A stretch of DNA of 32,674 nt from Candidatus Poribacteria bacterium (GTDB lineage: Bacteria > Poribacteria > WGA-4E > WGA-3G): positions 1 through 32,674 of the forward strand of contig VXOP01000349.1 in NCBI GenBank assembly GCA_009839975.1, written 5' to 3'. The notes beneath the pieces are model-generated. The model saw nothing but the letters and a program-made list of their open reading frames with translations. It did not search any database and had not been told where the DNA came from. A program made the position numbers and the translations under genes. This document shows positions 25,392 through 32,674 of the stretch, one piece after another (positions within the stretch are counted from its first letter, which is position 1; each line of letters starts with the position of its first letter).

Positions 25392-25420
25392 TTGACAATT
25401 CGGTGTATACAACGTATAAT
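25392..25420 (+). promoter_or_regulatory. Consensus promoter upstream of tnpA
   Basis: TTGACA (25392-25397), a 17-base spacer and TATAAT (25415-25420) match the vegetative consensus perfectly. The predicted start point, near 25427, falls inside the tandem repeats at 25423-25451. A transcript would carry a leader of about 120 bases before tnpA. Confidence 0.75.
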
Positions 25421-25422
25421 TG

Positions 25423-25451
25423 GGTAAGTAACTGCACGGTAAGTAACTGCA
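25423..25451 (+). repeat. Tandem 14-bp repeats at promoter start point
   Basis: GGTAAGTAACTGCA occurs at 25423-25436 and 25438-25451 (period 15). It begins two bases after the -10 box of the consensus promoter, a typical operator position. TnpA's MerR-like N-terminal domain is the natural candidate to bind it, as operator or as recombination end. Confidence 0.8.
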
Positions 25452-25511
25452 TGCTAAAATAGTATCAAATCTATTCATATCTAAATAATCTATATATTGT
25501 AAGAAATACAC

Positions 25512-25541
25512 TTGACAAATATATGTAAGGTGTGTTATTAT
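25512..25541 (+). promoter_or_regulatory. Second tnpA promoter, predicts leaderless mRNA
   Basis: TTGACA (25512-25517), an 18-base spacer and TATTAT (25536-25541) end six bases before the tnpA ATG at 25548. The start point would fall on or next to the start codon, and no ribosome site lies between. Confidence 0.7.
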
Positions 25542-25547
25542 GTTTAT

Positions 25548-26222
25548 ATGAATGATAGATTTATTAAGATTGGTGAAGCATCAAAACTGCTTGGTGTGAA
25601 TCCACAGACGTTAAGAAGATGGGAAGATGGTGGTTTTATTCAACCTGCCAAGCGAACGCCTAAAGGTACACGGCTTTATAGTGTGCAAGAGTTGTTAGGT
25701 GCAAAGGATATACAATATCCGACAATCGCTTATGCCAGAGTCTCAAGTCGTGACCAGAAGGAGGATCTGGAGCGGCAGCTTGCTGTCCTTGAGGCATATT
25801 GTAATAAGAATGGTTGGGACACAATTGTAATCAAAGACTTAGGCAGTGGTATAAACTATAATAAGAAAGGCTTGTTAGAACTGCTTGAAATCATTGTTTT
25901 TGGGCGTGCTGCACGTATTGTCTTGACGCATAAAGATAGACTTCTACGTTTCGGTGCGGAGATTATCTTCCGTATTTGTGAAATGAAAGGCATAGAAGTT
26001 GTTATTATCAATAAAGGCGAACAACCATCATTTGAAGAAGAACTGACACAAGACGTTATGGAAATCATGACTGTATTTTGTGCGAAACTTTATGGTAGCA
26101 GATCACATAAATCTAAAAAACTGGCAGAAGCGATACAGGAGATCGTTGGTGATGAATATGCTTCTGTCCAAATGGAGTTGAGTTCGGAGGCACGAGAGAC
26201 GGAAGCAGGAATTAAACAATAA
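25548..26222 (+). CDS. tnpA: IS607 family transposase TnpA (serine recombinase)
   Basis: This 224-residue recombinase begins with a MerR-like helix-turn-helix (KIGEASKLLGVNPQTLRRWE, residues 7-26), as is characteristic of IS607. The serine resolvase core follows: IAYARVSSRDQKEDLERQ with catalytic Ser66, SGINYNKKGLLELLEI, ARIVLTHKDRLLRFG and the helix E that ends KLYGSRSHKSKK. All key residues look intact, so it may be active. ATG 25548 is chosen because the frame upstream is only the promoter sequence. No canonical ribosome site is present. TnpB, the usual partner and RNA-guided nuclease, is absent. Confidence 0.92.
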   Translation: MNDRFIKIGEASKLLGVNPQTLRRWEDGGFIQPAKRTPKGTRLYSVQELLGAKDIQYPTIAYARVSSRDQKEDLERQLAVLEAYCNKNGWDTIVIKDLGSGINYNKKGLLELLEIIVFGRAARIVLTHKDRLLRFGAEIIFRICEMKGIEVVIINKGEQPSFEEELTQDVMEIMTVFCAKLYGSRSHKSKKLAEAIQEIVGDEYASVQMELSSEARETEAGIKQ

Positions 26223-26339
26223 ACTAACAGATGTGGCAGAAATGTCTAAATATAAGCATATTATACCACATTTGTGAGATTTGTATAAGTTTTAAACAAC
26301 GGTAAGTCCCATAAAGGCAGGTAAAACACAATCCTATCT

Positions 26340-27149
26340 ATGAATCGAATTGACAAGAAATTTAAAATTCTCCGTGAGCAAAACAGGCGCGCATTTATGC
26401 CATACCTGTGTGCGGGAGATCCAACACCCGAACATACCGGGAAACTTCTCCTCACACTTGAAAAAGCAGGTGCTGACCTTATAGAACTCGGTGTCCCTTT
26501 TTCTGATCCGATAGCAGATGGCCCTACGATCCAACGTGCCAGTGAACGTGCACTCAAACATCGTATCTCACTGCAACAGATACTTGAGATGGTAAAAACA
26601 CTCCGGCAGCATACAGATATTCCCATCGCACTGATGAGTTACTATAATCCGATCTTCAGTATGGGGGAATTAGTATTTTGTGAAGCTGCACAAGACGCAG
26701 GTGTTGACGGTGTTATCGTTCCTGATTTACCGCCGGAGGAGGCACAACCGCTTTTGGACATTGCGCCGCAGTATAATCTCTCAACCATATTTCTTGTCGC
26801 GCCGACAAGTTCACCGGAACGGATGCAACGTATTGCATCGGTGAGTACAGGATTTATCTATTGCGTCTCGTTGACAGGTGTAACAGGTGCACGTGCAACT
26901 TTGTCTGATGAAGTCGCACCGATGCTAACTGAACTTCGTAAACATACCAATAAACCGATTAGTGTTGGGTTTGGTGTATCAACACCTGAACAAGCGAGTC
27001 AAGTTGCGGAAGTCGCGGATGGTGTTATTGTGGGAAGTGCAATCATCAATGTAATTGAAGAGAATATGGAAGACGAAGTGAAGATGCTTGCTGCGGTGAA
27101 ACGATTCGCTTCATATCTGGCTGCAGGGACAAAAAATGGCACTTTTTAA
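26340..27149 (+). CDS. trpA: Tryptophan synthase alpha chain
   Basis: This 269-residue TIM-barrel enzyme splits indole-3-glycerol phosphate to indole and glyceraldehyde-3-phosphate and passes the indole to TrpB. The catalytic residues keep the classical numbering: Glu49 in DLIELGVPFSDP and Asp60 in PIADGPTIQ. Other landmarks are ALMSYYNPIF, GVIVPDLPPEE, YCVSLTGVTGAR and the phosphate loop VGFGVSTPEQ/GVIVGSAII. The length is standard. ATG 26340 gives the usual N-terminus MNRIDKKFKILREQ, though the ribosome site is weak. trpB and other trp genes are not in the window, so it stands apart from any trp operon, downstream of the IS607 gene. Confidence 0.95.
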   Translation: MNRIDKKFKILREQNRRAFMPYLCAGDPTPEHTGKLLLTLEKAGADLIELGVPFSDPIADGPTIQRASERALKHRISLQQILEMVKTLRQHTDIPIALMSYYNPIFSMGELVFCEAAQDAGVDGVIVPDLPPEEAQPLLDIAPQYNLSTIFLVAPTSSPERMQRIASVSTGFIYCVSLTGVTGARATLSDEVAPMLTELRKHTNKPISVGFGVSTPEQASQVAEVADGVIVGSAIINVIEENMEDEVKMLAAVKRFASYLAAGTKNGTF

Positions 27150-27200: not shown

Positions 27201-29864
27201 ATGCGAAATTTGATTAAAACCTATTTTCTATTCTTTATGTTTTCAATGTTTCTATGTCTCAATGCCTTTTTTTCATTAAACGCTACAGCGCAAAACGTTC
27301 CAGCATCCCTCAGTGACAACTATACTTTTGAAACGATAGACGTTCCCGGTGTAGATTTTTTAGCGGTGACGGCGAGTAGTGATTTTGAGGATTTCGCAGG
27401 CAACACAAAAAGTGCTGATGGTGAAAGAGACATCGCGTTTACACTCATAGATGGTGTTTTCACAACCCACGATTTTCCCGGAGCACAGGGCACCTATTTC
27501 TATGCCCTCGGTAATAATGGATTAGCTGCGGGACACTACAAAGATAGCGAAGGTCTGTATCATGGCGTTATCTTGGAAAACGGAGAAATGCGACAATACG
27601 ATTATCCGGGTGCCGTCCAAACGGAGATATACGGGTATAGCGATTCAACGGGTGTACTGACAGGTAATTTTACGGATGCTGCCGGTGTGCGTCGTGGTTT
27701 TTCAGGAGATGAAATAATTGCGTATCCTGGCGCAACGGAAACTTATGCTGATTTTGTAAGCACGATAGGCAATGTCGTGGGTAGCTATGTAGACACCGAA
27801 GGTAATTATCGGGCATACCTGCGTGGCCCAGGGGGTAGTTTTGCGACACTTGACCTTCCTGTAGAATCAAATCTTGAATACTTTTTTCTGCATGGCATCA
27901 ACAGTGCCCTGATTGCTGTCGGTCGAGGCAAAACGGCGGGTGATGTCCCACGCACTTATGCTGGCAATCCGGTCGCCTTACAAGAATTGCAGTTTCCGGG
28001 CAGCGTCAGCACGGAAGGATGGAATGTTAATGAGGATAACTCTATTGTGGGACACTATGATACAGCGGATGGACGTAGACACGGGTTTATCGCGAGACCG
28101 AAAGCAGGGACTCCACAAGCGCGACCCGGTGTTGTGCCGCCTGCACTCAACTATACTTTTGAGAGTATTAATGTTCCCGGTGTAGATTTTTTAGCGGTAA
28201 CTGCCAGTAGCGACTTTTTTGATTACGCCGGCAACATGCGGCGTGCTAATGATGAAAAAGATGTCGCTTTTACACTCATCAATGGCGTTTTTACCACTTA
28301 TGATTATCCTGACTCGCAGGGAACGTATTTCTATGCACTCGGTAATGATGGAACAGCTGCCGGACACTACATAGATAGCGATGGTTTATACCACGGTGTA
28401 ATCTTAGAGAATGGCGAATTGCAGCAATACGATTTTCCGGGTGCCGTTCAAACCGAGATATACGGTCTAAGTGATGCAACGGGGGCACTGACAGGTAGTT
28501 ATATAGATGCCTCTGGTGTTCGCCGTGGGTTCTCAGGGGATACAGTAGTTGAAGCTCCGAATGCATCAGCAACTTATGCCGATTTTGTGAGTTGGACAGG
28601 CCATATCGTCGGCAGCTACCAGGATACCGCAGGGGTATATCATGCATATATGCGGAGTTCGATAGGCAGATTTCTATCTATTGACCTGCCAGACGCAACA
28701 AACCTGGAATACTTTTTCCTCCACGGCCTCAACAATGCAAGGGCTGTCGTTGGTAGAGCCAAAGCGGCGGGTGATGTTCCACGCACCTATGTCGGCAGTC
28801 CTCTCAACCTACGAGAATTGCAGTTTCCGGGTGCTGTTAGCACAGAGGGGTGGAATATCAATCAGGACGGTTCTGTCGTCGGACACTATGATACAGCGGA
28901 TGGACGTAGACACGGATTTGTCGCAAGACTCGTCGGAAAAACAGTAAGTGACAATTACGGGAACATCTTCAACGTCACACTCACCAAAGGTCTGAACATG
29001 ATATCGCTCCCTTTAGAAACGCCGAATCCGATGACAGCAAAATCACTCGCGGGAATCGCTGGATCAACAATGGTCATAGCACTTGATGCTGAAAACCAAC
29101 GGTTCGTCGGGTGGACACCAAGCGCACCCAACGAAGGATTCCCAATTGAAGGTGGACAAGGATATATCGTCAACGTCCCAGAAACTCGCAATTTTGTATT
29201 TGTCGGCGCACCCTGGACAGATCAACCGATGATAAGTGCTGCACCCGCTGCGATATCCAAGCAGAAAGAAGCATGGGCATTTATCGTAAGTGGACGCTTA
29301 GACGGTAAGCAAGAATATGACGGGTATCAGATAAAAGTCCGAAACCTGCGAACAAACACCATCATGGCAACACAAGTGCAAGATAATTACTTTGCTGCTG
29401 CCACAGCGGACCTCAGTTACCGAAATGTCGTACAGGTAGGTGATACGATGGAAGTAACCATTACCGATACGGACGGTTATATTGCCTCGGACGAGTACAG
29501 CTTTCAGGTGACACCCACCAATCTGGCAAACGCGTTTCTATCTGTCAAACTTGACAATATTGGCACACCGAAGCAGAGCGAACTATTGCAGAATTATCCA
29601 AACCCGTTCAATCCGGAGACGTGGATACCTTATCGCCTATCAGAAGATAGCAACGTATCCATCACGATATATGACGCAACAGGGAGTGTTGTCCAGACCC
29701 TCTCCCTCGGATTCCAATCGGTAGGATTCTATCAAGACCGTGGTCGTGCTGCCTATTGGAATGGTAAGAACGCCTCCGGTGAAAGTGTCGCAAGCGGACT
29801 CTATTTCTACCAGTTGACGACGAAATCATTCCAGCAAACGCGGCGATTGATCGTTGTTAAGTAG
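27201..29864 (+). CDS. Secreted HAF-repeat protein with T9SS-like C-terminal domain
   Basis: This 887-residue extracellular protein starts at ATG 27201 behind AAAGG and has a signal peptide of about 30 residues ending near NATAQ. Two large units (about 41-296 and 315-575) each hold some five to six HAF-like repeats of the pattern ALGNNGxAAGHYxDSEGLYHG, then VILENGxxxQYDFPGA, which resemble the 'extracellular repeat, HAF family'. Two non-repeat domains follow: GLNMISLPLETPNPMTA and AWAFIVSGRLDGKQEYDGYQ. The last 95 residues open with LLQNYPNPFNPETWIPYRL and form an FlgD-like, type-A sorting domain (SGLYFYQLTT to RRLIVVK) of T9SS-type cargo. The ligand is unknown. Its paralog lies at 30410. Confidence 0.9.
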   Translation: MRNLIKTYFLFFMFSMFLCLNAFFSLNATAQNVPASLSDNYTFETIDVPGVDFLAVTASSDFEDFAGNTKSADGERDIAFTLIDGVFTTHDFPGAQGTYFYALGNNGLAAGHYKDSEGLYHGVILENGEMRQYDYPGAVQTEIYGYSDSTGVLTGNFTDAAGVRRGFSGDEIIAYPGATETYADFVSTIGNVVGSYVDTEGNYRAYLRGPGGSFATLDLPVESNLEYFFLHGINSALIAVGRGKTAGDVPRTYAGNPVALQELQFPGSVSTEGWNVNEDNSIVGHYDTADGRRHGFIARPKAGTPQARPGVVPPALNYTFESINVPGVDFLAVTASSDFFDYAGNMRRANDEKDVAFTLINGVFTTYDYPDSQGTYFYALGNDGTAAGHYIDSDGLYHGVILENGELQQYDFPGAVQTEIYGLSDATGALTGSYIDASGVRRGFSGDTVVEAPNASATYADFVSWTGHIVGSYQDTAGVYHAYMRSSIGRFLSIDLPDATNLEYFFLHGLNNARAVVGRAKAAGDVPRTYVGSPLNLRELQFPGAVSTEGWNINQDGSVVGHYDTADGRRHGFVARLVGKTVSDNYGNIFNVTLTKGLNMISLPLETPNPMTAKSLAGIAGSTMVIALDAENQRFVGWTPSAPNEGFPIEGGQGYIVNVPETRNFVFVGAPWTDQPMISAAPAAISKQKEAWAFIVSGRLDGKQEYDGYQIKVRNLRTNTIMATQVQDNYFAAATADLSYRNVVQVGDTMEVTITDTDGYIASDEYSFQVTPTNLANAFLSVKLDNIGTPKQSELLQNYPNPFNPETWIPYRLSEDSNVSITIYDATGSVVQTLSLGFQSVGFYQDRGRAAYWNGKNASGESVASGLYFYQLTTKSFQQTRRLIVVK

Positions 29865-30409: not shown

Positions 30410-32674
30410 ATGCGAATTTTGAATAAATCCAGTTCTTTATTTTTTCTCTTCACGTTTTTCATGTGTTTCAATGCATTTTTTCCATTGAACATTGATGCAC
30501 AAGGGAACGTTCAACCTGTTCTCGCTTCTATTAGCGATAACTACACTTTTGAGACGATTGATGTTCCGGATGTAAACTTTTTGTCATTAACTGCAAGTAG
30601 CGACTTTGAAGATTATGCAGGCTACACACGCAGTGCTGATGGAGAAAGAGATGTCGCCTTCACCCTCATTGATGGCGTCTTTAAGACTTACGAATTCCCC
30701 GATGCACAAAACACATATTTCTTTGCACTCGGGAATAATGGGAACGCTGCCGGACACTACGAGGATAGTGAAGGACTGTTCCACGGTATCGTCTTAGAAA
30801 ATGGCAAATTGCGACAATACGATTTTCCAGGTTCCGTACAAACCGAGATATACGGCATTAGTGACGCTACAGGTGCACTGACAGGCAACTTCACAGACGA
30901 ATCGGGTGTTCGCCGCGGATTCTCGGCTGACGAAATAATTGAAGTTCCCGGCGCAACTGAAACATTCACTGATTTCGTCAACGCAAGCGGTGGTATGGTC
31001 GGCAGTTACATAGACGCTGACGGTATATATCATCCTTATATACGAACACCCAATGGTCGTTTTGTATCTCTTGACCTACCAAGTGCAGCGCAGTTGGAAT
31101 ACTTTTTTGTGCACGGTATCAACGATGTAAACGTTGTCGTTGCTCGCACCAAACTCGTAGGTGGACTCCCGGGTACCCTTGTCGGTACATTTCAGGGAGG
31201 GCTAAAAAGATTTGAGGTTCCAGGCAGCGTTAGTACAGAGGGATATAATATCAATCAAGATGGATCCATCGTCGGACACTACGACACAGGAGATGGACTA
31301 AGGCACGGCTTCATCGCAAGACCCATAACTGACCCCGATGAACCCGTTGTAGATGTTCCCGCCCCCACTCCCACACTTGAAGAACTCAATTATACTTTTG
31401 AGAGTATCAATGTTCCCGGTGTAGACTATTTAGCGGTGACGGCAAGTAGCGACTTTGAGGATTATGCTGGATACACGCGAAATGCCGATGGAAAAGAGGT
31501 CGCCTTTACGCTCATCGCCGGTGCCTTTACCACCTATGATTTTCCAGACTCCCAGAAAACACATTTCTATGCACTTGGGAATGATGGAAAAGCTGCAGGA
31601 CACTATCAGGATAGCGACGGTCTGTTCCACGGTGTCATCCTTGAAAATGATGAACTGACACAATACGATTTCCCAAATGCTGTCCAAACCGAGATATATG
31701 GTATCAGTGATGCAACTGGTGCACTGACAGGCAACTTCACAGATGAATCTGGAATCCGTCGCGGATTCTCTGGAGATATAATCGTTGAGTCACCAGGGGC
31801 AACGGAAACTCATGCTTACTTTGTGGATATGAGCGGACGTATCGTGGGTAGCTACGTTGATGCTGGTGGTATATATCATCCATACATGCGTCAACTAAAT
31901 GGTAGGTTTATTTCTCTTGATCTGCCACAAGCTGCAATGTTTGAATACTTTTTTGTACACGGTATTAACGATGCCGGGCTCTCGTTGGCAGATCAAAACG
32001 GATCGGGAATGTCGTCCGCACTTCTGTCGGATCACTACAGCACGGACTACGTCCATTGGTATTCCCAGGCAGCGTTAGCACAGAAGGGTGGAATATTAAC
32101 CAAGACCATTCTGTTGTCGGATACTACGACACAGCGGATGGACGCAGACACGGATTCATCGCAAGACTTTCCACTAAAGAAGATAGCGAACGTTATGCCA
32201 ACATTTTCAATCTCAAGTTGTCAAAAGGTCTGAACATGGTATCGCTACCTTTAGCAACACCAAAGCCGATAAACGCAAGAGCATTCGCAGGATTGACAGG
32301 ATCAACAATGGTCATCGCACTTGATGCCGATAACCAACGTTTCATCGGTTGGACCCCGGACTCACCGGATAACGGGTTTGAAATTGAGGGTGGACAAGGT
32401 TATATCGTCAATGTAGCATCAGATCGCGATGTCGCTTTCGTCGGTGCAGAGTGGCGCAACGAAACAGCAGCAGCTGCAGCTCCCAGCGTAACACCACTTC
32501 CAACACAGCAGCAGACCTGGGCATTCATCGTAAGTGGACACTTAGACGGTAAACAGAAATACGACGGTTATCACATCACAGTCAGAAACCTGCGAACTCG
32601 CAACGTTATGACCACACAAGTGCAGGATAACTACTTCGCCGCTGCTACAGCCGACCTCAGTTACCGAAGTGTCG
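30410..32674 (+). pseudogene. Second HAF-repeat secreted protein, frameshifted, runs off window
   Basis: This paralog of the 27201 gene starts at ATG 30410 behind AAAGGGAGAGG, with a signal peptide ending near NIDAQ. It has the same two HAF-repeat units (about 40-300 and 325-520). At about 31972-31976 one base is missing in a C/G run (GATGCCGGGCTC, where the paralog predicts GCCCGGGCT). The frame then ends at 32231-32233. The true continuation, in the next frame from 31975, reads ALVGRSKRIGN, PGSVSTEGWNINQD, GLNMVSLPLATPKPINA and AWAFIVSGHLDGKQKYDGY up to the window end, closely tracking the paralog. The sorting domain is expected beyond the window. It is either a recent frameshift mutation or an assembly error. 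If the latter, this is an intact gene. Confidence 0.85.

Follow-up and report, generated by a model that had tools for sequence, protein, structure and literature searches.

An IS607-family element has almost certainly inserted at a GGG sequence directly behind the −10 element of the host trpA promoter, without target duplication, and its boundaries could be set. The element lies in a window of 32,674 nucleotides (the window being the whole stretch of DNA analysed), from a 4.78-Mb assembly in the Poribacteria lineage; the named relatives are Poribacteria MAGs. As a complete explanation, we consider it highly probable that this insertion behind the trpA promoter, together with other changes in the element, has left tnpA behind a host outer promoter and an inner promoter of its own that would give a leaderless mRNA. 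The main features are as follows.

25392–25420, plus strand: TTGACA-17-TATAAT promoter of host trpA, external to the element (12/12 match; 16/16 congeneric loci).
25422–25424, plus strand: GGG target and GG crossover core at the left junction (L027 empty site, TATAATTGGGTAAGTCC; GGG in readable relatives).
25425–26302, plus strand: IS607-family element without tnpB, 878 bp (bounds from the empty site and the sister copy L092).
25512–25541, plus strand: tnpA promoter, TTGACA-18-TATTAT with TG extension, kept in all near copies.
25548–26222, plus strand: tnpA, IS607-family serine transposase of 224 aa (NF033518), predicted leaderless start at 25548, with a −10 six nt before the ATG.
26287–26302, plus strand: right terminus AAGTTTTAAACAACGG with GG core, identical in L092 and of the AAGTCCTACACAACGG type in others.
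26340–27149, plus strand: host trpA, identified from its own sequence and now ~920 nt from its promoter.

The TnpA protein scored 196.6 bits against the IS607 equivalog model NF033518 (cut-off, 110), and carries an N-terminal MerR-like domain (residues 7–44) and a Resolvase (serine recombinase) domain (residues 60–194). One further IS607 tnpA copy, 39% identical, was detected in the assembly, and no known RNA family was found within the window element or L092. The tnpB gene, usually located 3′ of tnpA in this family, is present in L092 and missing from the window copy; since tnpA alone suffices for transposition (PMC6188088), this absence is no bar to IS607 membership.

The insertion and its boundaries were read directly from the sequence. 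In the sister and closest genome, the trpA site (L027) is empty and runs from TATAATTGGG straight into TAAGTCC and on to the trpA ATG; this locus, CTTGACAATTTGGTCTATACAACGTATAATTGGGTAAGTCCTATAAAAGCAGGTAAAACACAATCCTATCTATG, equals the two flanks of the window joined, a few substitutions aside. A second congener (L028) also lacks an insertion at trpA. As judged from the L027 empty site and from the flanks of L080, both ends carry a GG core and insertion took place at GG without target duplication. L080 is a related IS607 copy (G046:C1:4425000-4430500) that interrupts a short-chain dehydrogenase gene, and the SDR frame becomes continuous again when the sequences on its two sides are joined at the GG core. 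The rule described for IS607 is a GG core, a (G)GG target and no target duplication (PMC6188088), and both the window junctions and the rejoined L080 flanks agree with it. The right end of the window element (ACAACGG followed by TAAGTCCC) equals that of L092 (ACAACGG followed by tttattcc), while near copies in other Poribacteria have the AAGTCCTACACAACGG type of right terminus and a left tip of GGG followed by a TTGCAG-type sequence.

The host target GGTAAGT matches the first bases of the left tip of the element (25423–25429 and 26301–26307). The insertion thus mimics a 7-bp direct repeat, though the IS607 family makes none; because the target of L092 is unrelated, we take the apparent repeat to be probably coincidental.

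The perfect promoter reported in the initial annotation was confirmed, with TTGACA at 25392–25397, a spacer of 17 nt and TATAAT at 25415–25420 (12/12 consensus positions), but its assignment to a tnpA control circuit was not. In trpA loci taken from 16 other genomes of the same genus, a perfect TTGACA-17/18-TATAAT promoter was found 33–45 nt 5′ of the trpA ATG in all 16, and trpA, identified by sequence, is the next gene 3′ of the IS607 element. Since the L027 empty site equals the joined flanks of the window, the outer strong promoter is, on these sequence grounds, the host trpA promoter and external to the element. Promoter-like sites in the region were at chance level (9 found versus 7.9 expected), and therefore the credibility of a promoter here rests on its conservation, not on number. 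A terminator was sought on the plus strand between tnpA and trpA and none was found, so that trpA is probably still transcribed by read-through. Beyond trpA, the ORFs at 27201–29864 and 30410–32233 encode secreted-looking proteins with similar ~300-aa repeats (YTFE(T/S)I(D/N)VPGV(D/N)(F/Y)L), and one of the two has a C-terminal sorting-like tail.

The closest copy, L092/L014 (G004), occupies another site and is 2,024 bp long with tnpB. Over 863 aligned positions it shares 95% identity with the window copy, which has three larger differences: a gain of 15 bp (25438–25452, the second repeat), a loss of 10 bp (one motif unit) and a loss of 1,150 bp. The last of these took tnpB and the sequence beyond it and replaced the final tnpA codons; the tnpA frame is open, and the C-terminal tail of TnpA is altered after about residue 212. 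The following features bear on these differences.

25423–25437, plus strand: first 15-bp repeat copy, the left tip, GG core plus TAAGTAACTGCAC (single copy in L092).
25438–25452, plus strand: second 15-bp repeat copy, a private duplication (extra relative to L092, missing in the other copies read).
25466–25496, plus strand: candidate TnpA-binding array of AAATCTAT-type units, with ATCTA cores at 25469, 25479 and 25488 (phased units common to the ends of relatives).
26183–26184, no strand: junction left by the internal loss of 1,150 bp (L092 positions 756–1905 missing in the alignment).
26277–26286, minus strand: TnpA motif as it recurs at the right end (AGATTTGTAT, the inverse of ATACAAATCT), from end comparison.

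The two tandem repeats described 3′ of the strong promoter are indeed exact copies of GGTAAGTAACTGCA, at 25423–25436 and 25438–25451 (period, 15 bp). No other exact site was found in the 4.78-Mb assembly, and matches with two or fewer mismatches were not above the reversed control (33 versus 39). A left end could be read in 17 further copies, and in all of them the tip was single; compared with these, the window copy alone has the tandem arrangement. The initial annotation had offered the repeats as a recombination end of the element, which holds for the first copy, being the left tip, and fails for the second, being a private duplication. It had also offered them as a TnpA operator, an idea that it regarded as refuted if other insertions lacked the repeats; the 17 other insertions read, including the 95%-identical copy, carry one tip, and the operator reading was rejected.

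In the circuit envisaged there, the strong promoter would belong to tnpA, the two 14-bp repeats would be bound by TnpA to repress it, and the leaderless promoter would supply basal expression. The position of the repeats immediately 3′ of the strong −10 and the MerR-like domain of TnpA fit such a circuit. However, the promoter is external to the element and occurs at 16/16 trpA loci that lack the element, the second repeat is absent from all other copies read, and the tip is similar across copies with differing DNA-binding domains and arrays, while the inner motifs vary with domain type. As a conserved circuit it is already refuted, and we regard it as very improbable. The second repeat is most simply explained by a 15-bp duplication and a single substitution. 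A failed or nested recombination instead of slippage, such as an insertion into an earlier left end followed by the loss of one of the elements, would account for a first copy identical to the sister tip (CAC) next to a second with CAT, but no further trace of another element is seen and one duplication with one substitution is simpler; we consider this origin unlikely. A false join between an IS contig and the trpA contig, made during binning or assembly, might be suspected from a single copy in a MAG, yet the junctions obey the GG rule of the family without deviation and the sequence on either side agrees with the congeneric locus, which makes this explanation extremely improbable.

Apart from the tip, short phased direct repeats, inverted between left and right, characterize IS607 ends. 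The array of the window has one 10-bp unit fewer than L092 (a 10-bp gap in the alignment), and its right end has one inverted motif; the inverted arrangement is clearer in the relatives L075, L076, L084, L085 and L088. Copies with the helix NPQTLRRWE have AAATCTATAC-type units ~10 bp apart, and those with the helix SVQALRNWE have AAAACCTATA-type units, each motif type recurring inverted at its own right end (e.g. L075/L076 versus L084/L085). The subterminal motif thus apparently co-varies with the MerR recognition helix between these two pairs. Based on this co-variation and on analogy with IS1535, whose phased TnpA-binding motifs were footprinted (PMC6188088), the 9–10-bp-phased ATCTA motifs at 25466–25496, just 5′ of the tnpA −35, are likely TnpA sites. 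At the left end of L088 (G082:C1:3850300-3855500) we observed five CTAAAACCTA units with an exact 10-bp period, where its sisters have two; this expanded array is presumed to bind TnpA, and the L088 TnpA frame seems to lack its N-terminus.

The inner promoter consists of TTGACA at 25512–25517, a spacer of 18 nt and an extended −10, TGT-TATTAT (TATTAT at 25536–25541), an 11/12 match. As the initial annotation had stated, its −10 ends (at 25541) six bases 5′ of the ATG at 25548. Scoring a −10 with at least 5/6 matches ending 5–8 nt before the tnpA ATG, we detected this spacing, at 6–8 nt, in 19/19 near copies (window included), in 26 of the 32 distant Poribacteria IS607 genes (~32–44% identity), with a sharp peak at 6, and in 10/24 plasmid-borne IS607 genes of other phyla, including those of H. 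pylori, H. cinaedi, C. jejuni, C. fetus, Stanieria, Acidiphilium, Bifidobacterium and L. salivarius. Among control genes, such a −10 was present in 4–6%, with 7 hits in 193 plasmid CDS and 8 in 125 Poribacteria ORFs. Fisher tests of the tnpA sets against controls gave P values of 1e-21 to 4e-5, which are indicative only because the copies are related and independence is overstated. The plasmid tnpA starts were as annotated, except that the nearest in-frame start was taken for two to three unannotated genes, and the starts of the Poribacteria control ORFs were called mechanically. The other-phyla genes without the spacing (14/24) comprise some from archaea and some with perhaps mis-annotated starts. 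Shine-Dalgarno-like sequences were found in none of 51 Poribacteria tnpA genes versus 52 of 125 control ORFs. The spacing has been retained where the neighbouring sequence has diverged, and the ~120 bp between the left tip and the tnpA ATG would leave space for a longer one.

With this conserved spacing and the absence of Shine-Dalgarno sequences, we infer that the tnpA mRNA starts at the AUG or no more than two bases from it, and the leaderless start proposed initially is therefore retained as a prediction in which we have good confidence. The habits of the host count against it. Perfect host promoters lie near ATGs far more often than in the reversed control (49 versus 1), but nearly all real ORFs checked start 9–118 nt 3′ of the promoter, with about one good leaderless case; leaderless initiation is thus not the host norm, and a genome-wide leaderless tendency was rejected. 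The TATTAT near the ATG might not be a working −10, tnpA being translated instead from read-through transcripts or from a leadered mRNA begun at some unrecognized site further 5′; host genes mostly have leaders of 30–45 nt. Against this, the spacing is fixed at 6–8 nt across 37–100% protein identity, the −35 and the TG extension are kept, and a Shine-Dalgarno sequence is missing in 51/51 genes, so that we consider a leadered tnpA mRNA improbable.

A leaderless tnpA start thus seems to recur within the IS607 family. That it is a widespread, selected trait across several bacterial phyla, in which dependence on its own promoter blocks read-through expression and favours action in cis, is conceivable, with the balance tipped slightly against it. 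In the IS607 literature searched we found no report of a leaderless tnpA; one may exist elsewhere.

We propose the following course of events. An IS607-family element transposed into the GGG after the trpA −10 by GG-core serine recombination. The loss of tnpB, the loss of a 10-bp TnpA-binding unit and the 15-bp duplication of the left tip may have followed, or may already have been present in the donor. The host outer promoter would now read into the element and on to trpA. Its transcript, with a predicted start near 25427, would have ~120 nt ahead of tnpA and no ribosome site there, and tnpA should therefore be poorly translated from it. The main source of TnpA would then be the leaderless mRNA from the element's own inner promoter, and we put forward only tentatively, as a rather doubtful role, that the leaderless start insulates tnpA from host read-through transcripts. 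Being synthesized close to the left end, TnpA may then act in cis, and by occupying the phased motifs that adjoin the −35 it may switch off its own promoter. IS607 is reported to need tnpA near its ends (PMC6188088), a need that would be well served by a leaderless mRNA arising beside the left end.

These results replace a promising-looking regulatory circuit with an exact insertion event at a documented empty site, and point to a testable trait, namely that IS607 transposase genes of Poribacteria, and a share of those in other phyla, are built leaderless. If true, this trait could account for the reported need for tnpA near the ends and the survival of IS607 elements behind strong host promoters, such as that of trpA here.

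Like H. pylori IS607, IS1535 and ISC1926, the window element encodes a serine recombinase TnpA of inverted order with an N-terminal MerR-like domain, and shares with them the GG core, the (G)GG target, the lack of target duplication and short directly repeated subterminal motifs. It differs from complete relatives, in which tnpB follows tnpA, by lacking tnpB, and from the family by its private left-tip duplication. Elements of the IS200/IS605 family often share tnpB with IS607, but their transposase is a Y1 HUH enzyme rather than a serine recombinase. IS10, IS50 and IS200 limit transposase synthesis from impinging transcription through RNA structures that hide the ribosome site or through antisense RNA. 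The need to avoid transposase expression from host read-through is presumably the same in the window element, in which, however, the longer transcript would simply lack a ribosome site.
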